From IMG/VR virus record IMGVR_UViG_3300031659_000126, positions 1 to 20,568 of that record: 20,568 bases of DNA. The stretch is one strand, 5' to 3'. The notes below the pieces were generated by a model, which did not search any database, was not told the DNA's origin, and saw only the letters and a program-made list of their open reading frames with translations. The position numbers and the translations under genes were made by a program. The number at the start of each line of letters is the position of its first letter. The stretch's first letter is position 1. Positions 2,493 to 8,547 of this stretch are shown here, in pieces. The stretch comes from a virus.

Positions 2493-2506
2493 TAAAAATA
2501 AACAAA
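2493..2506 (+). promoter_or_regulatory. A-rich 14-base leader shared by two genes (translation-start context)
   Basis: TAAAAATAAACAAA ends on the A of the ATG at 2506. An identical 14-mer lies at 5513-5526 before the start at 5531. Neither has a Shine-Dalgarno sequence. A-rich, TAAAA-containing start contexts are known to support initiation in Flavobacterium and relatives, so this is probably the ribosome-loading sequence. Confidence 0.4.
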
Positions 2507-3702
2507 TGTCAAAGGAAACAGTTGTCAACAAGGACAGCAAACAACCAGAATTCGACTGGGATGCATATGAAGCTTCATGTCCAAGTGTAAGAAGAAAATC
2601 TGCAAAACGATTAAAAGATGGTACGAAAATATTTTGTACTGAACCATACGCCGAAGAATCACTAAAGGCATATAACCTAGATTTTACTGAAAATAAGAGA
2701 ATAGTTGATGTTAAACTAGACTGTTCGTATGAAGGAACTGTAGATTCTATAGATACTAAATGGTGTACTATTAATATAGGTGGAAGAGATTCTGTATACG
2801 TTGATTTAACGAAAGAAGCAGAAGAATACAGAGAATTATTAAAACCTGGCGAGAAAGTAAACGTTCAAGTTATAGAATCAAACGGTTCTATACAGGGTAA
2901 ATACATATTAGGTTCGGTTGAGGCTGGATTTAAACGTGCAATCTTTGATGAGATTCTAGAGAGTGTTGAGAATTCTAAAACTGCATATAATTCTACGGTT
3001 AAGAGTATTATACCTGGTGGAGGTTATATAGTAGAGATACAAGGTATCGAGTGTTTTATGCCAGGTTCTTTAGCTGGAATTAATAAACTTCATGACTTTG
3101 AATCAATATTAGGAACTAATATGTACGTTGTTCCTATGAGTTACTCTGCTGATAGAGGAACTATTGTAGTTTCACATAGAGAATATTTGAAAGCTATGAT
3201 TCCTACTAAAATTGCTGAAATAAAAGAATATGATAACGGCGTTGTTGTTAGAGGAAGTGTTACTGGTTCTGCTAAGTTCGGTATATTCTGTGAGTTTAAT
3301 GAGTGTTTAACTGGTATGATTCATGTAAATGACTTAGACGAGGAAACAATGAAGAGACATATGAACAGAGAAGTTGTTCCTGGAGAAGAGATTGAATTCT
3401 TTATTAAGAAGATTATTTCAGAATCTAAAATTACATTATCTCAGAAACCAGTAGAAGCGGTAACTGATCCATGGTTTAATGCTGCTGAAAGATTTAAGAC
3501 TCCGGTCGAGGTTACCGGTAAGATAAGATCTGTGAAGGATTATGGTGCGTTTGTCGACATCGGAGAAGGCCTTGTAGGGTTACTGCATGTGTCTGAATTC
3601 CCTGAAGGACATGATCTGAATGAACTTATAAAAGGCGATGACATCACAGTCACTGTCACTAGGATTGATGAGGAAACTCGTAAAGTTTTTCTTAAATTAT
3701 AA
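2506..3702 (+). CDS. Phage-encoded ribosomal protein S1-like RNA-binding protein (four S1 domains)
   Basis: This 398-residue protein contains four S1-type OB repeats at about 70-140, 163-232, 246-315 and 332-398. The last is textbook, with VTGKIRSVKDYGAFVDIGEG followed by GLLHVSE; the third has GMIHVNDL; the first two are more diverged. Cellular S1 usually has about six repeats and binds mRNA on the 30S subunit, helping initiation on mRNAs with weak ribosome-binding sites. The N-terminus contains FDWDAYE, which I recall near the N-terminus of Bacteroidota S1; this suggests descent from a host rpsA of that phylum and retained ribosome docking. It lies between tail genes but has its own 55-base upstream region, with an AGATATATA element and an A-rich leader. 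The likely role is favouring phage mRNA on host ribosomes. A regulator of its own mRNAs or an RNA chaperone is possible. The domain call is secure; the biological role is inferred. Confidence 0.9.
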   Translation: MSKETVVNKDSKQPEFDWDAYEASCPSVRRKSAKRLKDGTKIFCTEPYAEESLKAYNLDFTENKRIVDVKLDCSYEGTVDSIDTKWCTINIGGRDSVYVDLTKEAEEYRELLKPGEKVNVQVIESNGSIQGKYILGSVEAGFKRAIFDEILESVENSKTAYNSTVKSIIPGGGYIVEIQGIECFMPGSLAGINKLHDFESILGTNMYVVPMSYSADRGTIVVSHREYLKAMIPTKIAEIKEYDNGVVVRGSVTGSAKFGIFCEFNECLTGMIHVNDLDEETMKRHMNREVVPGEEIEFFIKKIISESKITLSQKPVEAVTDPWFNAAERFKTPVEVTGKIRSVKDYGAFVDIGEGLVGLLHVSEFPEGHDLNELIKGDDITVTVTRIDEETRKVFLKL

Positions 3703-3748: not shown

Positions 3749-4102
3749 ATGAAATTAACAGAACAAAAACTAAGAGAGATCATTAGAGAAGAATTAAAAT
3801 CTAACGGTACAGTAAGCGAAATAGCTCCAGTTATTGCAGCTGTCGCAAGACAAGCAGTAGCTTCAGCAGTTGCTAAAAAAGTTAGCGAACAGGTAGAAGA
3901 AGGTATCGCACCAGGAGTTGATGATGTTGTTAAACTTGTAACGGCTTCTGCTGATATGTATGACAGTGATGATAATGAAGATCACAAAGGAAACGACTAC
4001 ATAGAAGAATGTAAAGAGGTTCTTGAAAATGCTATCGCTAAGATTGCTACTCAAGTTGCTACAGACGCTGCTTCTGCTGCAATTGCTAAGAAGATGTCAT
4101 AG
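3749..4102 (+). CDS. Small Ala-rich helical protein with an LREIIREEL-type N-terminus
   Basis: This 117-residue protein is of unknown function. It opens with MKLTEQKLREIIREELKS, an amphipathic helix. Similar K-L-T-x-x-x-L-R-x-I-I-R-E-E-type starts recur, as far as I recall, on otherwise unrelated small proteins of large marine T4-like phages, where they may act as a targeting or packaging tag. After the tag come two Ala/Val-rich helical segments (about 27-48 and 88-117) separated by an acidic stretch (about 55-85). There is no signal peptide and no membrane segment long enough to be convincing. It follows the S1-like gene after a 46-base AT-only-like gap and is closed by a strong terminator at 4140-4167, so it ends a transcription unit. 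It may be a head- or virion-associated small protein; this is a guess from the N-terminal tag. Confidence 0.75.
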   Translation: MKLTEQKLREIIREELKSNGTVSEIAPVIAAVARQAVASAVAKKVSEQVEEGIAPGVDDVVKLVTASADMYDSDDNEDHKGNDYIEECKEVLENAIAKIATQVATDAASAAIAKKMS

Positions 4103-4139: not shown

Positions 4140-4167
4140 AATCCCGTTCGAAAGATCGGGATTTTTT
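4140..4167 (+). terminator. Intrinsic terminator with a GAAA tetraloop
   Basis: The hairpin has a 7-bp stem, AATCCCG (4140-4146) with CGGGATT (4157-4163). A T-T mismatch and two more pairs follow, closed by a C-GAAA-G tetraloop (4149-4154). The T run extends to 4167. It is the only clear rho-independent terminator I see in the window and separates the S1/small-protein unit from the amidoligase unit. Confidence 0.85.
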
Positions 4168-4181
4168 ATGTTCAAAAATTA

Positions 4182-4190
4182 AGATATATA
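4182..4190 (+). promoter_or_regulatory. AGATATATA element upstream of the amidoligase-like gene
   Basis: The third copy of the nonamer lies just after the terminator and 38 bases before the ATG at 4220. It overlaps TATAAATC (4187-4194), a 7/8 match to the T4 late-promoter core TATAAATA. Its location right after a terminator is the best positional support for a promoter role. Confidence 0.5.
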
Positions 4191-4205
4191 AATCAACTTA
4201 AGTTA

Positions 4206-4213
4206 TATAAATA
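4206..4213 (+). promoter_or_regulatory. Perfect T4-late-type TATAAATA core next to a start codon
   Basis: TATAAATA matches the core of T4 late promoters exactly and ends 6 bases before the ATG at 4220. In T4 the transcript begins about 6 bases past this core, which would place the first base at or next to the ATG, giving a leaderless mRNA. It may be a chance AT-rich match. Confidence 0.35.
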
Positions 4214-4219
4214 CCAATA

Positions 4220-5512
4220 ATGAACAGATTTAACGACGCAGAAATATTATCTAAATCTTTAGTAGGTGTAGAGTTTGAATTCTACTCTAATAAAGATATA
4301 AGTACTACAGCTAAAGAGCTTGGAGCATTGTTATCTAAAAAAATTAGAGTCGAAGACAAAGCCCATAGTGATTTCGTACCTACTAGAAGTGAATTTAAGA
4401 TAGAACCTGATATGAGTGGTGGGGAAAAGCTTATGGAATTAGTAACAGGCGCTCAACCATATGCCGACGCAAGGCTTTTAATTATAAGAGTTTCTCAATG
4501 GATTAAAGAGAATGGATTCACGAATGATAGAACTTCGATTCACTTAAATCTTTCATTCGATACTAGTAAAATAGAAAATAAACGAAGAATATCTATGATG
4601 AATGTTCTTAAATTTATTTTAGAATTTGATGAGGCCGCAGTTTTTTCTTTGTTTCCGCAAAGAAAAAACTCAGCATACGCTAAATCCGTAAAGTTCGTGC
4701 TTCCAAATTCAGAGACGTTTAATATAGATGGTGATTTAATAGATGAGCATAACTTTACATTCCCATCATCTAAATACTATGGTATTAATTTCGAGAAGAG
4801 AATCAAAAATTATTTAGAGTTTAGATATATCGGTGGAAAGGATTGGGAAACAAAAACTAATAAGATATTACATCTGCTTGATTCGTTTTTAGTTCAATTA
4901 TGGAAAAGTACAGAATCTAGAAGGTTTACTCATTTGAATTCACTAGAACTTAAAGACGTTCTTTCAAAGAATAGAAGAATTATAGACGCAAGAACTGACT
5001 GGAGAGTGATTGAAAAGAAATGGAAGAATATTGATTTTACAGTAGACCTACACAGAGACTCAGAAATTATACAATTATACTGGTCTAATATACAAAGAAG
5101 AGTTTTAAGATTGTTTACTCATGGTGCTCTTAAAAAAGGACATATAAATTACGACACAGATACTGGAAGAGTTCAAGTGAGTGCCGGAGAATTATCGTAT
5201 TGTGTTGCTCTTGAGGGTTATGATTTTATTGATTGTGATATTAAGGGAGAGATACAACAGTGCGATGTATTTGGAGGAACTATGAGCGACTCTGATATTA
5301 CCGACTGTAATTTCTATAATAACGCAAAAATAAAATCATCTAAAATTAAGAGTTGCTATATTAGTGCGGATTCTGCTGTTACTGATGGTTATATTTACGG
5401 GAGAGGTATTCTTAAGGGTAGTATGATAGGAGGTATATTCAGAGAGGGTACATATGATAAAGTAAGAGCAAGGTTCAAAGGTACTGAGAAAATAAGGTAC
5501 GACGAAGTATAA
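4220..5512 (+). CDS. Amidoligase-like enzyme (COOH-NH2 ligase family) with a C-terminal repetitive beta-solenoid-like tail
   Basis: The first 210 residues carry the pattern of the putative amidoligases (Amidoligase_2, glutamine-synthetase-like fold). There is an opening GVEFEF strand (16-21), then IEPDMSGGEKLMELVTG (61-77, matching the family's D-x-S ... E-[IL]-V block), SIHLNLSF (106-113, the family's His-containing strand) and LEFRYIGG (199-206). The family is predicted to join a carboxyl to an amine using ATP, to modify peptides, proteins or cell-wall components; substrates are mostly unknown. Residues about 340-416 form a different region, with short-period repeats of Ile/Cys/Phe alternating with Asp/Ser/Asn/Gly, as in pentapeptide-like or beta-helix stacks. 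Such a part could bind a surface or give trimeric attachment. The gene is isolated by the terminator at 4140-4167 and has its own promoter-like motifs. The enzyme call is motif-based only; activity and substrate are unknown. Confidence 0.7.
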   Translation: MNRFNDAEILSKSLVGVEFEFYSNKDISTTAKELGALLSKKIRVEDKAHSDFVPTRSEFKIEPDMSGGEKLMELVTGAQPYADARLLIIRVSQWIKENGFTNDRTSIHLNLSFDTSKIENKRRISMMNVLKFILEFDEAAVFSLFPQRKNSAYAKSVKFVLPNSETFNIDGDLIDEHNFTFPSSKYYGINFEKRIKNYLEFRYIGGKDWETKTNKILHLLDSFLVQLWKSTESRRFTHLNSLELKDVLSKNRRIIDARTDWRVIEKKWKNIDFTVDLHRDSEIIQLYWSNIQRRVLRLFTHGALKKGHINYDTDTGRVQVSAGELSYCVALEGYDFIDCDIKGEIQQCDVFGGTMSDSDITDCNFYNNAKIKSSKIKSCYISADSAVTDGYIYGRGILKGSMIGGIFREGTYDKVRARFKGTEKIRYDEV

Positions 5513-5530: not shown

Positions 5531-6337
5531 ATGAGTAATATATTTACAGGTGGAGCAACTGGTATGGCAACAGAACATGATTTCGGTTCATCTTGCTTGA
5601 ATGATTTCGTCGCAGAGATCGGTAACGAGATAACGGGCGCATGTATGATTCCGATGAATCTTCCATCTTCTGAAGTTGAAGCTATTATTAATAGAGCTAA
5701 GAAGTGGTTTTATAAAAAATACGAGTATTCTGTTCAAGAGAATTTCTTTGTAATACCGAAAGCTGCATTTTCTACTACATATTTCAAAGCATCAAGAACT
5801 ATTAATATGCCATCAACTGTATACTCTATATTTGGTGTTCATAAAACAAACGGAAATTCTATAACTGGTGATGTTGATTTTGCTAGTGGAGATTTTTCAG
5901 TAGAGAGAATGTTCGCTGGTAACATGTACGGAAGTGGAGGAGTCGCTGGTGCAGCAGAGAGTTTAGAATATTATGTAATAAACGAGAAGTTTTTTGACTT
6001 AGCGAGACAAATATTAAATAACCCATTCAGTTTCGATTATAATAGACTTAAACGAGCTTTAAGATTTACTGGAGAGACGCCAACAACTGATGTTGTGCTG
6101 GAGGTTTATGAAACTATTCCTGATTGTGCGCTATATGAAGATGAGATATTTTTTAGATACTGTGCGGCTAAAATAAAGGTTTCCCTTGGTAATAAATTAA
6201 GCGTTTTTGAGTTTCAATTACCTGGTAACATAACGGTAAATGGAGGCGCTATACTTGACATGGGACAGAGCGAACTTGAGGCGATCATAGAAGAAATTAA
6301 CGAGGATGAAGGAACTGATTGGATGATGCATTCTTAA
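5531..6337 (+). CDS. Unidentified tail/baseplate structural protein
   Basis: I cannot name a family for this 268-residue protein with confidence. It has an N-terminal helical part with an aromatic motif (about 50-70: AKKWFYKKYEYS), a mixed middle with a Gly-rich loop (about 125-145), and a C-terminal part. That last part has a Cys-containing helix (EDEIFFRYCAAKIKVSLG) followed by an acidic end (about 235-268). The layout of a charged helix, then a Gly/Leu-rich strand, then an acidic tail is of the sort seen in neck, tail-completion and sheath-contact proteins, but this is only a resemblance. The ATG at 5531 was chosen because the A-rich leader precedes it; an internal ATG at 5573 (MATEHDF) is a possible alternative. 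It sits directly before the wedge genes, 16 bases from the gp25-like start, so a baseplate or tail-assembly role is likely. Confidence 0.7.
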   Translation: MSNIFTGGATGMATEHDFGSSCLNDFVAEIGNEITGACMIPMNLPSSEVEAIINRAKKWFYKKYEYSVQENFFVIPKAAFSTTYFKASRTINMPSTVYSIFGVHKTNGNSITGDVDFASGDFSVERMFAGNMYGSGGVAGAAESLEYYVINEKFFDLARQILNNPFSFDYNRLKRALRFTGETPTTDVVLEVYETIPDCALYEDEIFFRYCAAKIKVSLGNKLSVFEFQLPGNITVNGGAILDMGQSELEAIIEEINEDEGTDWMMHS

Positions 6338-6353
6338 TTGAATATATAGTTAT

Positions 6354-6707
6354 ATGGAATTTTACATAAAGAAATACGGAGACCCTAAATTTGACAATAG
6401 TCAGATGGAAATTGATGATGAAATTACAGAGCTTCTGATTCAATTAGAAACCATGCTGTTTACAACTAAGGGTTCTGTGTTGGGCTCTCCGGAGTTTGGT
6501 TTAAATCTAGATGATTATGTTTATTCTTTTAGATATAACGATAATATGCTGGTTAAACTTATTAGGGAGGATATTAATAGGTTCATACCACTATCAAAAA
6601 AATATAGCGTGGAGGTAACTGCTGATTTTACAGATGAAGTTGATAGACACTTAGTGTTTATCAGTATTGTAGTAGACGCAAAGTACCAAGTAGGTCTTTA
6701 CATATAA
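6354..6707 (+). CDS. Baseplate wedge protein, GPW/gp25 family
   Basis: This 117-residue protein has the size and signature of the gp25/GpW lysozyme-like baseplate family. An N-terminal helical part (ITELLIQLETMLFTTKGSVLG, about 24-44) leads to the conserved turn SPEFGLNLDDYVY (45-57). This corresponds to the G-x-P-x-F-G-x-x-L block of the family. A helix (about 62-75) and two closing strands follow. In T4, gp25 sits in the inner baseplate, holds the wedge to the central hub and starts sheath polymerisation; the name notwithstanding, lysozyme activity is not needed for this. It is followed after 16 bases by the gp6-like gene, the conserved gp25-gp6 pairing of contractile injection systems, which makes the call firm. 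Confidence 0.9.
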   Translation: MEFYIKKYGDPKFDNSQMEIDDEITELLIQLETMLFTTKGSVLGSPEFGLNLDDYVYSFRYNDNMLVKLIREDINRFIPLSKKYSVEVTADFTDEVDRHLVFISIVVDAKYQVGLYI

Positions 6708-6723
6708 AACATTAATAATTAAA

Positions 6724-8547
6724 ATGGAATACAAATTCAAATATTTAGAAAAGTCAAGGATTAAGACGGCAGAAATGATAAAAGATACTCAAACTTTCAT
6801 CAGTAGGGTATACGATAGGGCGGGTACTCTATTTACATCAGCTTCTCCGTTTGCCCAGATATTAAACGTATTACAAGAACTTTCGAGTTTTGTTTTCCTC
6901 TATATAGAAGATGCTTTAGTAGAACAAAATATATTAACAGCTCAACATAAAGAATCTGTTTATGGTTTATCAAGACTTGCGGGTCATGATCCATTTAGAG
7001 GCTCTGCAGCACAGGGAGAAATAAGAATTAGATTAAATCCGTCTGCTGTAGCTGAGGTTGCAGGAGATGCTATCAACATACTTCCAGATAGTTTAATTAA
7101 GATGGAGGCTAACGGTTTAAAATATACAATGTTAACAAATTCAGATAAGTTTAGGGTTTCAAAATCAAATTCTGGATTTATTAGAATACCTATAATTCAA
7201 GGAGAGGTTGAAAAACAAACAGTAACAGGTACTGGTGAAAAGTTTCAATCATTCAATATAATAACAAAAGCAAGTACGGACCACAGTCAGGTTAGAGTTT
7301 CTGTAAATAGTATTACGTGGCAGAAATTCGATTCTATATATGATATGAAGGTTGGTACTCCTGGTTTTATTGTAAAGACAGGTATCAGTGGAGGCTTAGA
7401 TATTTATTTCGGTAATGGAAGTTTTGGAGCTCTTCCAGTTTTAGGTAGTTCTATAGAGATTAAGTATATAAAAAACAAAGGAGATAATGGGAATTTAATA
7501 GGAGGTAAGAATTTAAGATTTAAGTTTGATGATGATGGTTTTGATAGTTTAGGAAACTCATATGACTTAAATGAGTTATTAGAAACTGAAGTAACAATTA
7601 CACCTAGAATGGGTTCTAATCCTGAAAGTATAGAGCTTACAAAACTTATTGCGCCGCTGCAATCACATGCTTTTGTATTAGCGACTCCAGATAATTATGA
7701 AGCGTTTTTATCTCAATATGGTATGTTTTCATACTTAGACGCGTACAGTACAACGGACGATGGATACTTAGATGATGATAATGTTATCTATTTATTTATG
7801 CTACCTGATGTTAAAAGAAAACTTACTAATAATAAAGATTATTTTAGTTTGGAGGTTGATGAATTCTTCTTTTCTGAAGACGAGAACAACGCAGTGCTTG
7901 AGGTAATTGAAAAATCAGGTAGACAGATGCTGACGTCAGAGGTTAAAATTACTCCTCCGTCTCCTCAGTATTTTAGAATGGATATTAAAGTAAGGTATTT
8001 CGAAGGATATGATAAACATAGTATATTCAACAACATCAGGTCTTCAATATCAGAATATCTAATGAACATTACTCGCCGAGATAGATTACCAAAATCTGAT
8101 ATAATAGCTATACTAGAAGGCGTCGCAGGTATCGACTCAGTTAACGTAAGATTCGTTAGTAAAACTGAAGAAGACGCAAGGAGACTTGGTTACTATACCT
8201 CAGAAACTGTAATCATCACACCATCCACTCCAATACTAGAAGACATAGGTAATGGACAGCAAAAATTCGTATTCTTTAAAAGAACAGTAAAGAAAAAAAC
8301 GGTTAGATTTGCAAAAGACGCGGCTCTCCCAGAAAACGTAATAAACTTAGATTCATTTGGAGATATTCTTTTAGAAAAAGATGAGGTTGCTTTATTTAGA
8401 GGCGGCTGGACAGATAGAGATAATGTTCTAGTTGATGATGACGCGTTAATTGGAGAGATGGGAGCATTATCAGTTTACTTTGATGATCCCGCAGTTCCTC
8501 AAACTATATTCACTAGAGTGCAGGCAAAAAATAGAAAAACGCTATAA
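6724..8547 (+). CDS. Baseplate wedge protein, gp6 / baseplate-J-like
   Basis: This 607-residue protein is close to the length of T4 gp6 (about 660). The N-terminal block (about 40-95: PFAQILNVLQELSSFVFLY, then ...NILTAQHKESVYGLSRLAGHDP) is the start typical of gp6/gpJ wedge proteins. In these, a long helix packs against the sheath initiator and is followed by a Leu-Ala-Gly turn. A middle beta domain follows (about 98-280). The C-terminal region includes SDIIAILEGVAGIDSVNVRFVS (about 457-478), matching the ferredoxin-like end seen in J-type proteins. Gp6 forms the ring that holds the wedges together and opens on contraction. The gene follows gp25-like directly and overlaps the next gene by one base (TAATG, 8545-8549). 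The call rests on motifs, length and order together. Confidence 0.85.
   Translation: MEYKFKYLEKSRIKTAEMIKDTQTFISRVYDRAGTLFTSASPFAQILNVLQELSSFVFLYIEDALVEQNILTAQHKESVYGLSRLAGHDPFRGSAAQGEIRIRLNPSAVAEVAGDAINILPDSLIKMEANGLKYTMLTNSDKFRVSKSNSGFIRIPIIQGEVEKQTVTGTGEKFQSFNIITKASTDHSQVRVSVNSITWQKFDSIYDMKVGTPGFIVKTGISGGLDIYFGNGSFGALPVLGSSIEIKYIKNKGDNGNLIGGKNLRFKFDDDGFDSLGNSYDLNELLETEVTITPRMGSNPESIELTKLIAPLQSHAFVLATPDNYEAFLSQYGMFSYLDAYSTTDDGYLDDDNVIYLFMLPDVKRKLTNNKDYFSLEVDEFFFSEDENNAVLEVIEKSGRQMLTSEVKITPPSPQYFRMDIKVRYFEGYDKHSIFNNIRSSISEYLMNITRRDRLPKSDIIAILEGVAGIDSVNVRFVSKTEEDARRLGYYTSETVIITPSTPILEDIGNGQQKFVFFKRTVKKKTVRFAKDAALPENVINLDSFGDILLEKDEVALFRGGWTDRDNVLVDDDALIGEMGALSVYFDDPAVPQTIFTRVQAKNRKTL

Follow-up and report, generated by a model that had tools for sequence, protein, structure and literature searches.

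Amidoligase_2 proteins (PF12224) are carboxylate-amine (COOH-NH2) ligases of the glutamine synthetase (GS) fold that occur in phages and bacteria, and the substrates usually proposed for those of phages are peptidoglycan or small molecules (PMC5498523, PMC10580990). In the podoviruses RIO-1, phiEco32, LUZ24, and CW02, amidoligases are part of cassettes that contain several partner enzymes and sit among transcription and DNA-metabolism genes (PMC5498523). These cassettes are thought to alter peptidoglycan against superinfection, which is itself a hypothesis (PMC5498523; see also PMC10580990). We found the amidoligase genes of Arthrobacter phages Kovu and Salgado and of Salinivibrio phage CW02 beside genes for gamma-glutamyl cyclotransferase and glutamine amidotransferase, and those of gut Heliusvirales beside a cyclotransferase gene.

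Here we analyzed a 20.6-kb virus record (20,568 nucleotides; hereafter, the window) that carries structural genes of a myovirus-like phage. One of its proteins shares the domain, motif order, and catalytic-type residues of Amidoligase_2 proteins, but its family adds a predicted C-terminal beta-solenoid and is encoded in a tail locus without cyclotransferase or glutamine amidotransferase neighbors; a Pfam scan of the window genes detected neither partner. The CW02 amidoligase is part of a profile that matches the window family, but the amidoligase of this family stands alone in the tail block, whereas the cassettes lie in the DNA-metabolism region (PMC5498523). Our literature search found no description of an amidoligase-pentapeptide fusion; as far as that literature shows, this member of a known enzyme family, with its unusual fusion and strict linkage to tail genes, represents a variant that had not been described.

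Domain structure and active-site positions

The open reading frame at 4220-5512 (plus strand), which begins with ATG at 4220 and whose stop codon ends at 5512, lies where the initial annotation placed it, is complete, encodes 430 amino acids, and has hundreds of full-length relatives. The motifs that had suggested an amidoligase are present in the order given there: GVEFEF (residues 16-21), IEPDMSGG (61-68), ELVTG (73-77), SIHLNL (106-111), and LEFRYIGG (199-206). Alignments, structure, and profiles delimit a catalytic domain of the GS-fold amidoligase type (residues 1-235; 4220-4924, plus strand). In the predicted structure, it is followed by a helical linker region (236-300; 4925-5119, plus strand), which is less conserved than the catalytic domain.

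Searches of Pfam, PHROGs, and PDB with the window protein alone gave weak or no matches. Its score against Amidoligase_2 was 16.5 bits (E 0.0079), below the Pfam gathering cut-off of 22 bits, and NCBIfam returned only a kinase match far below cut-off. Family profiles and structure were therefore needed to identify the domain. Amidoligase_2 matched 33 of 56 diverse members at E <= 0.01 (best, 3.8e-10), and relatives above the cut-off include a full-length one (G002; 22.7 bits) and a distant one from Agrobacterium phage Atu_ph07 (30.2 bits). By hhalign, the family profile matched a profile of nine phage proteins (most of them annotated amidoligases, the rest close to annotated ones, plus the Atu_ph07 protein) with 97.8% probability (E 1.3e-12, 233 columns); a smaller, four-sequence profile gave a probability of only 26.8%. 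The AlphaFold model of the whole protein had a mean pLDDT of 88.9, and its closest solved structures were glutamine synthetases (4bax; Z 10.6, 187 aligned residues, rmsd 3.9). Foldseek found 5dm3 (E 6.7e-4) and also gamma-glutamylcysteine synthetase, and named matches among the BFVD viral models were mostly amidoligases. The Pfam matches of the family, the profile comparison, and the matches of the AlphaFold model together establish the domain, which the single protein matches only below the cut-off. The proposed Amidoligase_2 identity thus survived the fold comparison, in which both amidoligases and glutamine synthetases were recovered, and assignment of the N-terminal part to an Amidoligase_2-type domain is well supported.

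Conservation was assessed in 56 relatives with identity down to about 30%. Residues E18, E20, D64, S66, E73, H108, R148, N190, E200, and R202 were identical in 56/56 members and, together with N110, form the invariant positions of the catalytic domain; the loss of Glu, His, and Arg positions that would have spoken against an amidoligase was not seen in these homologs. Invariant positions of the canonical alignment correspond to E20, D64, S66, H108, R148, N190, E200, and R202 of the window protein, so that the Amidoligase_2 pattern (ExE, D-x-S, E(L/V)V(T/S), GxH, R, N, and E-x-R) is present with two exceptions: the canonical Trp is replaced by F59, and Ser usually takes the place of the Gly in GxH (S106; 54 of 56 members). 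The window family, like the Atu_ph07 relative, also departs from Amidoligase_2 at 108-110, where HxN replaces HxH. We take E18/E20, D64/E73, H108, E200, and R202 to correspond to the metal and phosphate sites of GS. Between neighboring sequences, dN/dS was about 0.1-0.2 for the fusion gene, about 0.1 for the catalytic domain (where dS was computable), and about 0.13-0.22 for the C-terminal region. Judging from these ratios, the catalytic domain is under strong purifying selection and the C-terminal region under somewhat weaker constraint, and the conserved positions suggest that the enzyme is apparently active.

The C-terminal repeat region noted in the initial annotation was also borne out. 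Residues 301-430 (5120-5509, plus strand), when modeled alone, formed a beta-solenoid with a pLDDT of 93.3, and the family profile of this region matched pentapeptide-repeat proteins in PDB (AlbG/McbG-like 2xt4, E 7.8e-5; MfpA, 4.5e-4; Qnr, 6.1e-4). Pentapeptide_4 matched 15 of the 56 members at E <= 0.01 (best, 5.4e-6); individually scored relatives all fell under its cut-off (best, 26.8 bits versus 38), and the window protein itself matched none of the Pfam pentapeptide models. Structure comparison placed NP275/276 (Z 9.9) and EfsQnr (Z 9.1) among the matches, with other beta-helices scoring equally, and a period of 5 was the strongest of the hydrophobicity periods tested, at a non-significant level (shuffle p 0.11). 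The C-terminal part is thus a predicted beta-solenoid, probably derived from pentapeptide repeats. It shares the solenoid and profile similarity with MfpA, Qnr, and AlbG, but it is short and its pentads are irregular. A role as a DNA-gyrase mimic is unsupported; the members checked carry a net charge of just -1 to -6, and there is therefore no strong case for DNA mimicry. The DUF2169 proteins of type VI secretion systems (T6SS) resemble the window family in that a component of a contractile injection apparatus is extended by C-terminal pentapeptide repeats (PMC11883445), but they are without an amidoligase, and we regard the likeness as analogy and claim no homology. The solenoid could also serve for oligomerization only.

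Distribution, tail-block linkage, and upstream element

A scan of IMG/VR found at least 544 relatives. Among GenBank phages, nearly full-length relatives are present in six records of 462-735 kb (LR745206 and LR756500-LR756504). Hundreds of relatives occur in huge phages. No cellular relative was found in the genome_contigs collection of 84,980 species, which speaks against recent acquisition from a host without proving absence.

The location in a tail locus, as originally proposed, was confirmed by the neighboring genes, all on the plus strand. Upstream lies a gp5-like baseplate hub/spike protein with an OB domain (229-939; Phage_base_V, E 3e-8, and baseplate phrogs). The next gene downstream encodes a head-tail adaptor (neck) protein (5531-6337; phrog_211, E 8.1e-14), followed by a gp25-like baseplate wedge protein (6354-6707; GPW_gp25, E 3e-4, below cut-off) and a gp6-like baseplate wedge protein (6724-8547; phrog_219, E 4.5e-32). 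In the marine clade, gene order is nearly constant: hub, a 503-aa gene, ribosomal protein S1 homolog, amidoligase, head-tail adaptor, gp25, and gp6. When loci were collected from adaptor and gp6 rather than from the amidoligase, 94 of 95 loci had the amidoligase gene no more than 500 bases upstream of the adaptor, at amidoligase identities down to 42%; these loci come from related phages of a single clade, with some contigs counted twice, and are not independent evidence. In the remaining locus, the contig ends 99 bases upstream of the adaptor. In more distant huge phages (L081, L086, and L187), about 0.8-2 kb separate the adaptor and the amidoligase. The OB hub is within 10 kb of the amidoligase in five of seven huge genomes; it is far away in W04 and was undetected in W06. 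Near-universal retention in the tail block argues against an optional accessory gene, and the strict linkage to the adaptor, together with the lack of cyclotransferase and glutamine amidotransferase genes beside the amidoligase in the window, speaks for a role in phage assembly or another late role.

The gene at 2506-3702 (plus strand) encodes a 398-aa homolog of ribosomal protein S1 with several S1 domains (30S ribosomal protein S1 model, E 2.1e-46, below the equivalog cut-off). The amidoligase gene is just downstream in 30/30 S1 loci, and conversely, S1 is upstream in most marine amidoligase loci and in LR756500; in the marine clade as in LR756500, it is as near to the amidoligase as the tail genes are. 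S1-domain and S21 genes are known from huge phages (PMC7162821). In LR745206, LR756501, LR756502, LR756504, and a 508-kb IMG/VR genome, S1 domains lie tens of kilobases or more from the amidoligase, the nearest at about 19 kb (508-kb genome).

Several other features were observed around these genes. A small protein encoded at 3749-4102, which begins MKLTEQKLREIIREEL, is found in some relatives only and weakly matches the XXXCH domain of the GAK system; a terminator-like hairpin follows its gene at about 4142-4170. In the 462-kb LR756500 (L081), a transposase gene (1728-2903; phrog_506, E 2.4e-27) lies within the tail gene region.

Alignment of upstream regions revealed a conserved 5' element, GATATATAAATCAACTTAAGTTATATAAATA (also written ATATATAAAYYAACTTAAGT), at 4183-4213 (plus strand). 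Its RATATATA part keeps a constant distance from the amidoligase gene across the clade, and all 34 aligned upstream regions share an unchanged ATATATA core at about -36. Over 20 loci, 97 of 168 RATATATA occurrences are intergenic, although intergenic sequence makes up about 2% of the total, and these are mostly just upstream of tail-block genes, including amidoligase, S1, and gp25. This pattern suggests that RATATATA is a phage promoter. The 5' element is also present in L017 and others, and in some loci it forms a near-palindrome of about 37 bases, from which a conserved RNA hairpin had been suspected. RNAalifold found no consensus structure, and we therefore prefer a promoter or operator over an RNA hairpin as the function of this element. 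A T4-type late promoter, TATAAATA at 4206, was also considered; it was not above chance in the window and not conserved. In LR745206 (L083), a related element, TTAATATATA, is enriched (7 occurrences versus 1.1 expected). It stands before the amidoligase and other genes, and several gene starts follow it at a distance of a few to some tens of bases. From its placement, TTAATATATA is likely a phage promoter in L083 and its relatives, which would give some genes very short leaders.

Candidate substrates and roles

We tentatively favor a late carboxylate-amine ligase that acts on a virion or tail protein and uses the solenoid as a docking module, while placing this reading at somewhat below an even chance. 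By analogy with the GS fold, the product would be an ATP-dependent carboxylate-amine ligase of the Amidoligase_2 type, in which E18, E20, D64/E73, H108, and E200 with R202 would hold ATP and divalent metals, and in which a carboxylate would be activated as an acyl phosphate and then joined to an amine. The enzyme would be made late, with the tail and neck genes, and the beta-solenoid, a plausible docking arm, would most likely dock it onto a tail, neck, or baseplate component. The most likely substrate would be a phage structural protein, which would acquire an amino acid or an isopeptide/amide bond while the particle is being assembled. The domain, the invariant active-site positions, the solenoid, the tail-gene linkage, and the lack of the usual partner genes nearby are computed results; enzyme class and context are well supported, and we infer catalysis, late timing, docking, and the substrate. 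Because the link to the neck and tail block is strict and deep, we regard an optional metabolic role as unlikely and consider a late role connected with the particle the most likely. Against the assembly reading count the two huge genomes of seven without the OB-hub link (W04 and W06), the equal closeness of S1 in the marine clade and LR756500, and the targets usually proposed for other phage amidoligases.

The usual proposal for phage amidoligases is a different target, the cell wall (PMC5498523, PMC10580990). On this view, the enzyme would form an amide link on peptides of the peptidoglycan or on a different compound of the host envelope and thereby modify the wall or exclude superinfection. 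Separate GGACT cyclotransferase genes, away from the amidoligase, in three of the six huge phage records (LR745206, LR756501, and LR756502; none in LR756500 and LR756504) are consistent with this proposal, as is a weak M15 D-Ala-D-Ala carboxypeptidase-like gene about 2.8 kb away in the LR745206 group. The M15-like domain was seen in a 537-aa gene near the LR745206 tail genes (L083 5514-7127, minus strand; E 5.2e-5, just under the cut-off). However, the window amidoligase has no cassette partners beside it, unlike those of Kovu, Salgado, and CW02, and its gene lies in the tail block, outside a DNA-metabolism region; we consider a wall target unlikely. Linkage to the OB hub, within 10 kb in five of seven genomes, would fit an injected effector that rides the baseplate hub/spike by means of its solenoid and modifies a target in the host as soon as the DNA has been injected. 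The role of the T6SS pentapeptide-repeat extension is itself unknown (PMC11883445), however, and the parallel is one of analogy, so that we give this possibility a low probability.

Proximity to S1 raises the question of translation. RimK adds amino acids to S6, and the amidoligase might likewise attach amino acids to ribosomal proteins of the phage or the host, in concert with the phage S1 protein encoded next to it; S1 lies directly upstream in all of the S1 loci, in most marine loci, and in LR756500. RimK is an ATP-grasp enzyme and not of the GS fold, however, which counts against such a role, and the link to the head-tail adaptor is at least as strict as that to S1, which is distant in LR745206, LR756501, LR756502, LR756504, and the 508-kb genome. 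Even though huge phages carry S1-domain and S21 genes (PMC7162821), a translation modifier thus appears improbable. A protein that kept the fold and lost the chemistry, with a purely structural or regulatory role, would also fit the solenoid fusion and the linkage to tail genes, but residues of the metal- and ATP-site type do not vary among the 56 sequences, and conservation is higher in the catalytic domain than in the C-terminal region, making loss of chemistry very improbable.

So far, phage amidoligase genes have been viewed as optional, serving to modify the wall or metabolites, with functions unproven. Here, an amidoligase fused to a solenoid is strictly retained in the tail block throughout a wide group of huge phages. 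It is possible, although doubtful, that in this lineage of the largest phages a GS-fold amidoligase became central to particle assembly, covalently modifying or cross-linking a tail or neck protein by way of a beta-solenoid docking arm. If the ribosome or the wall is the target, placement with tail genes needs another explanation; if virion proteins are modified, amide-ligase chemistry would have an unexpected role in phage assembly.
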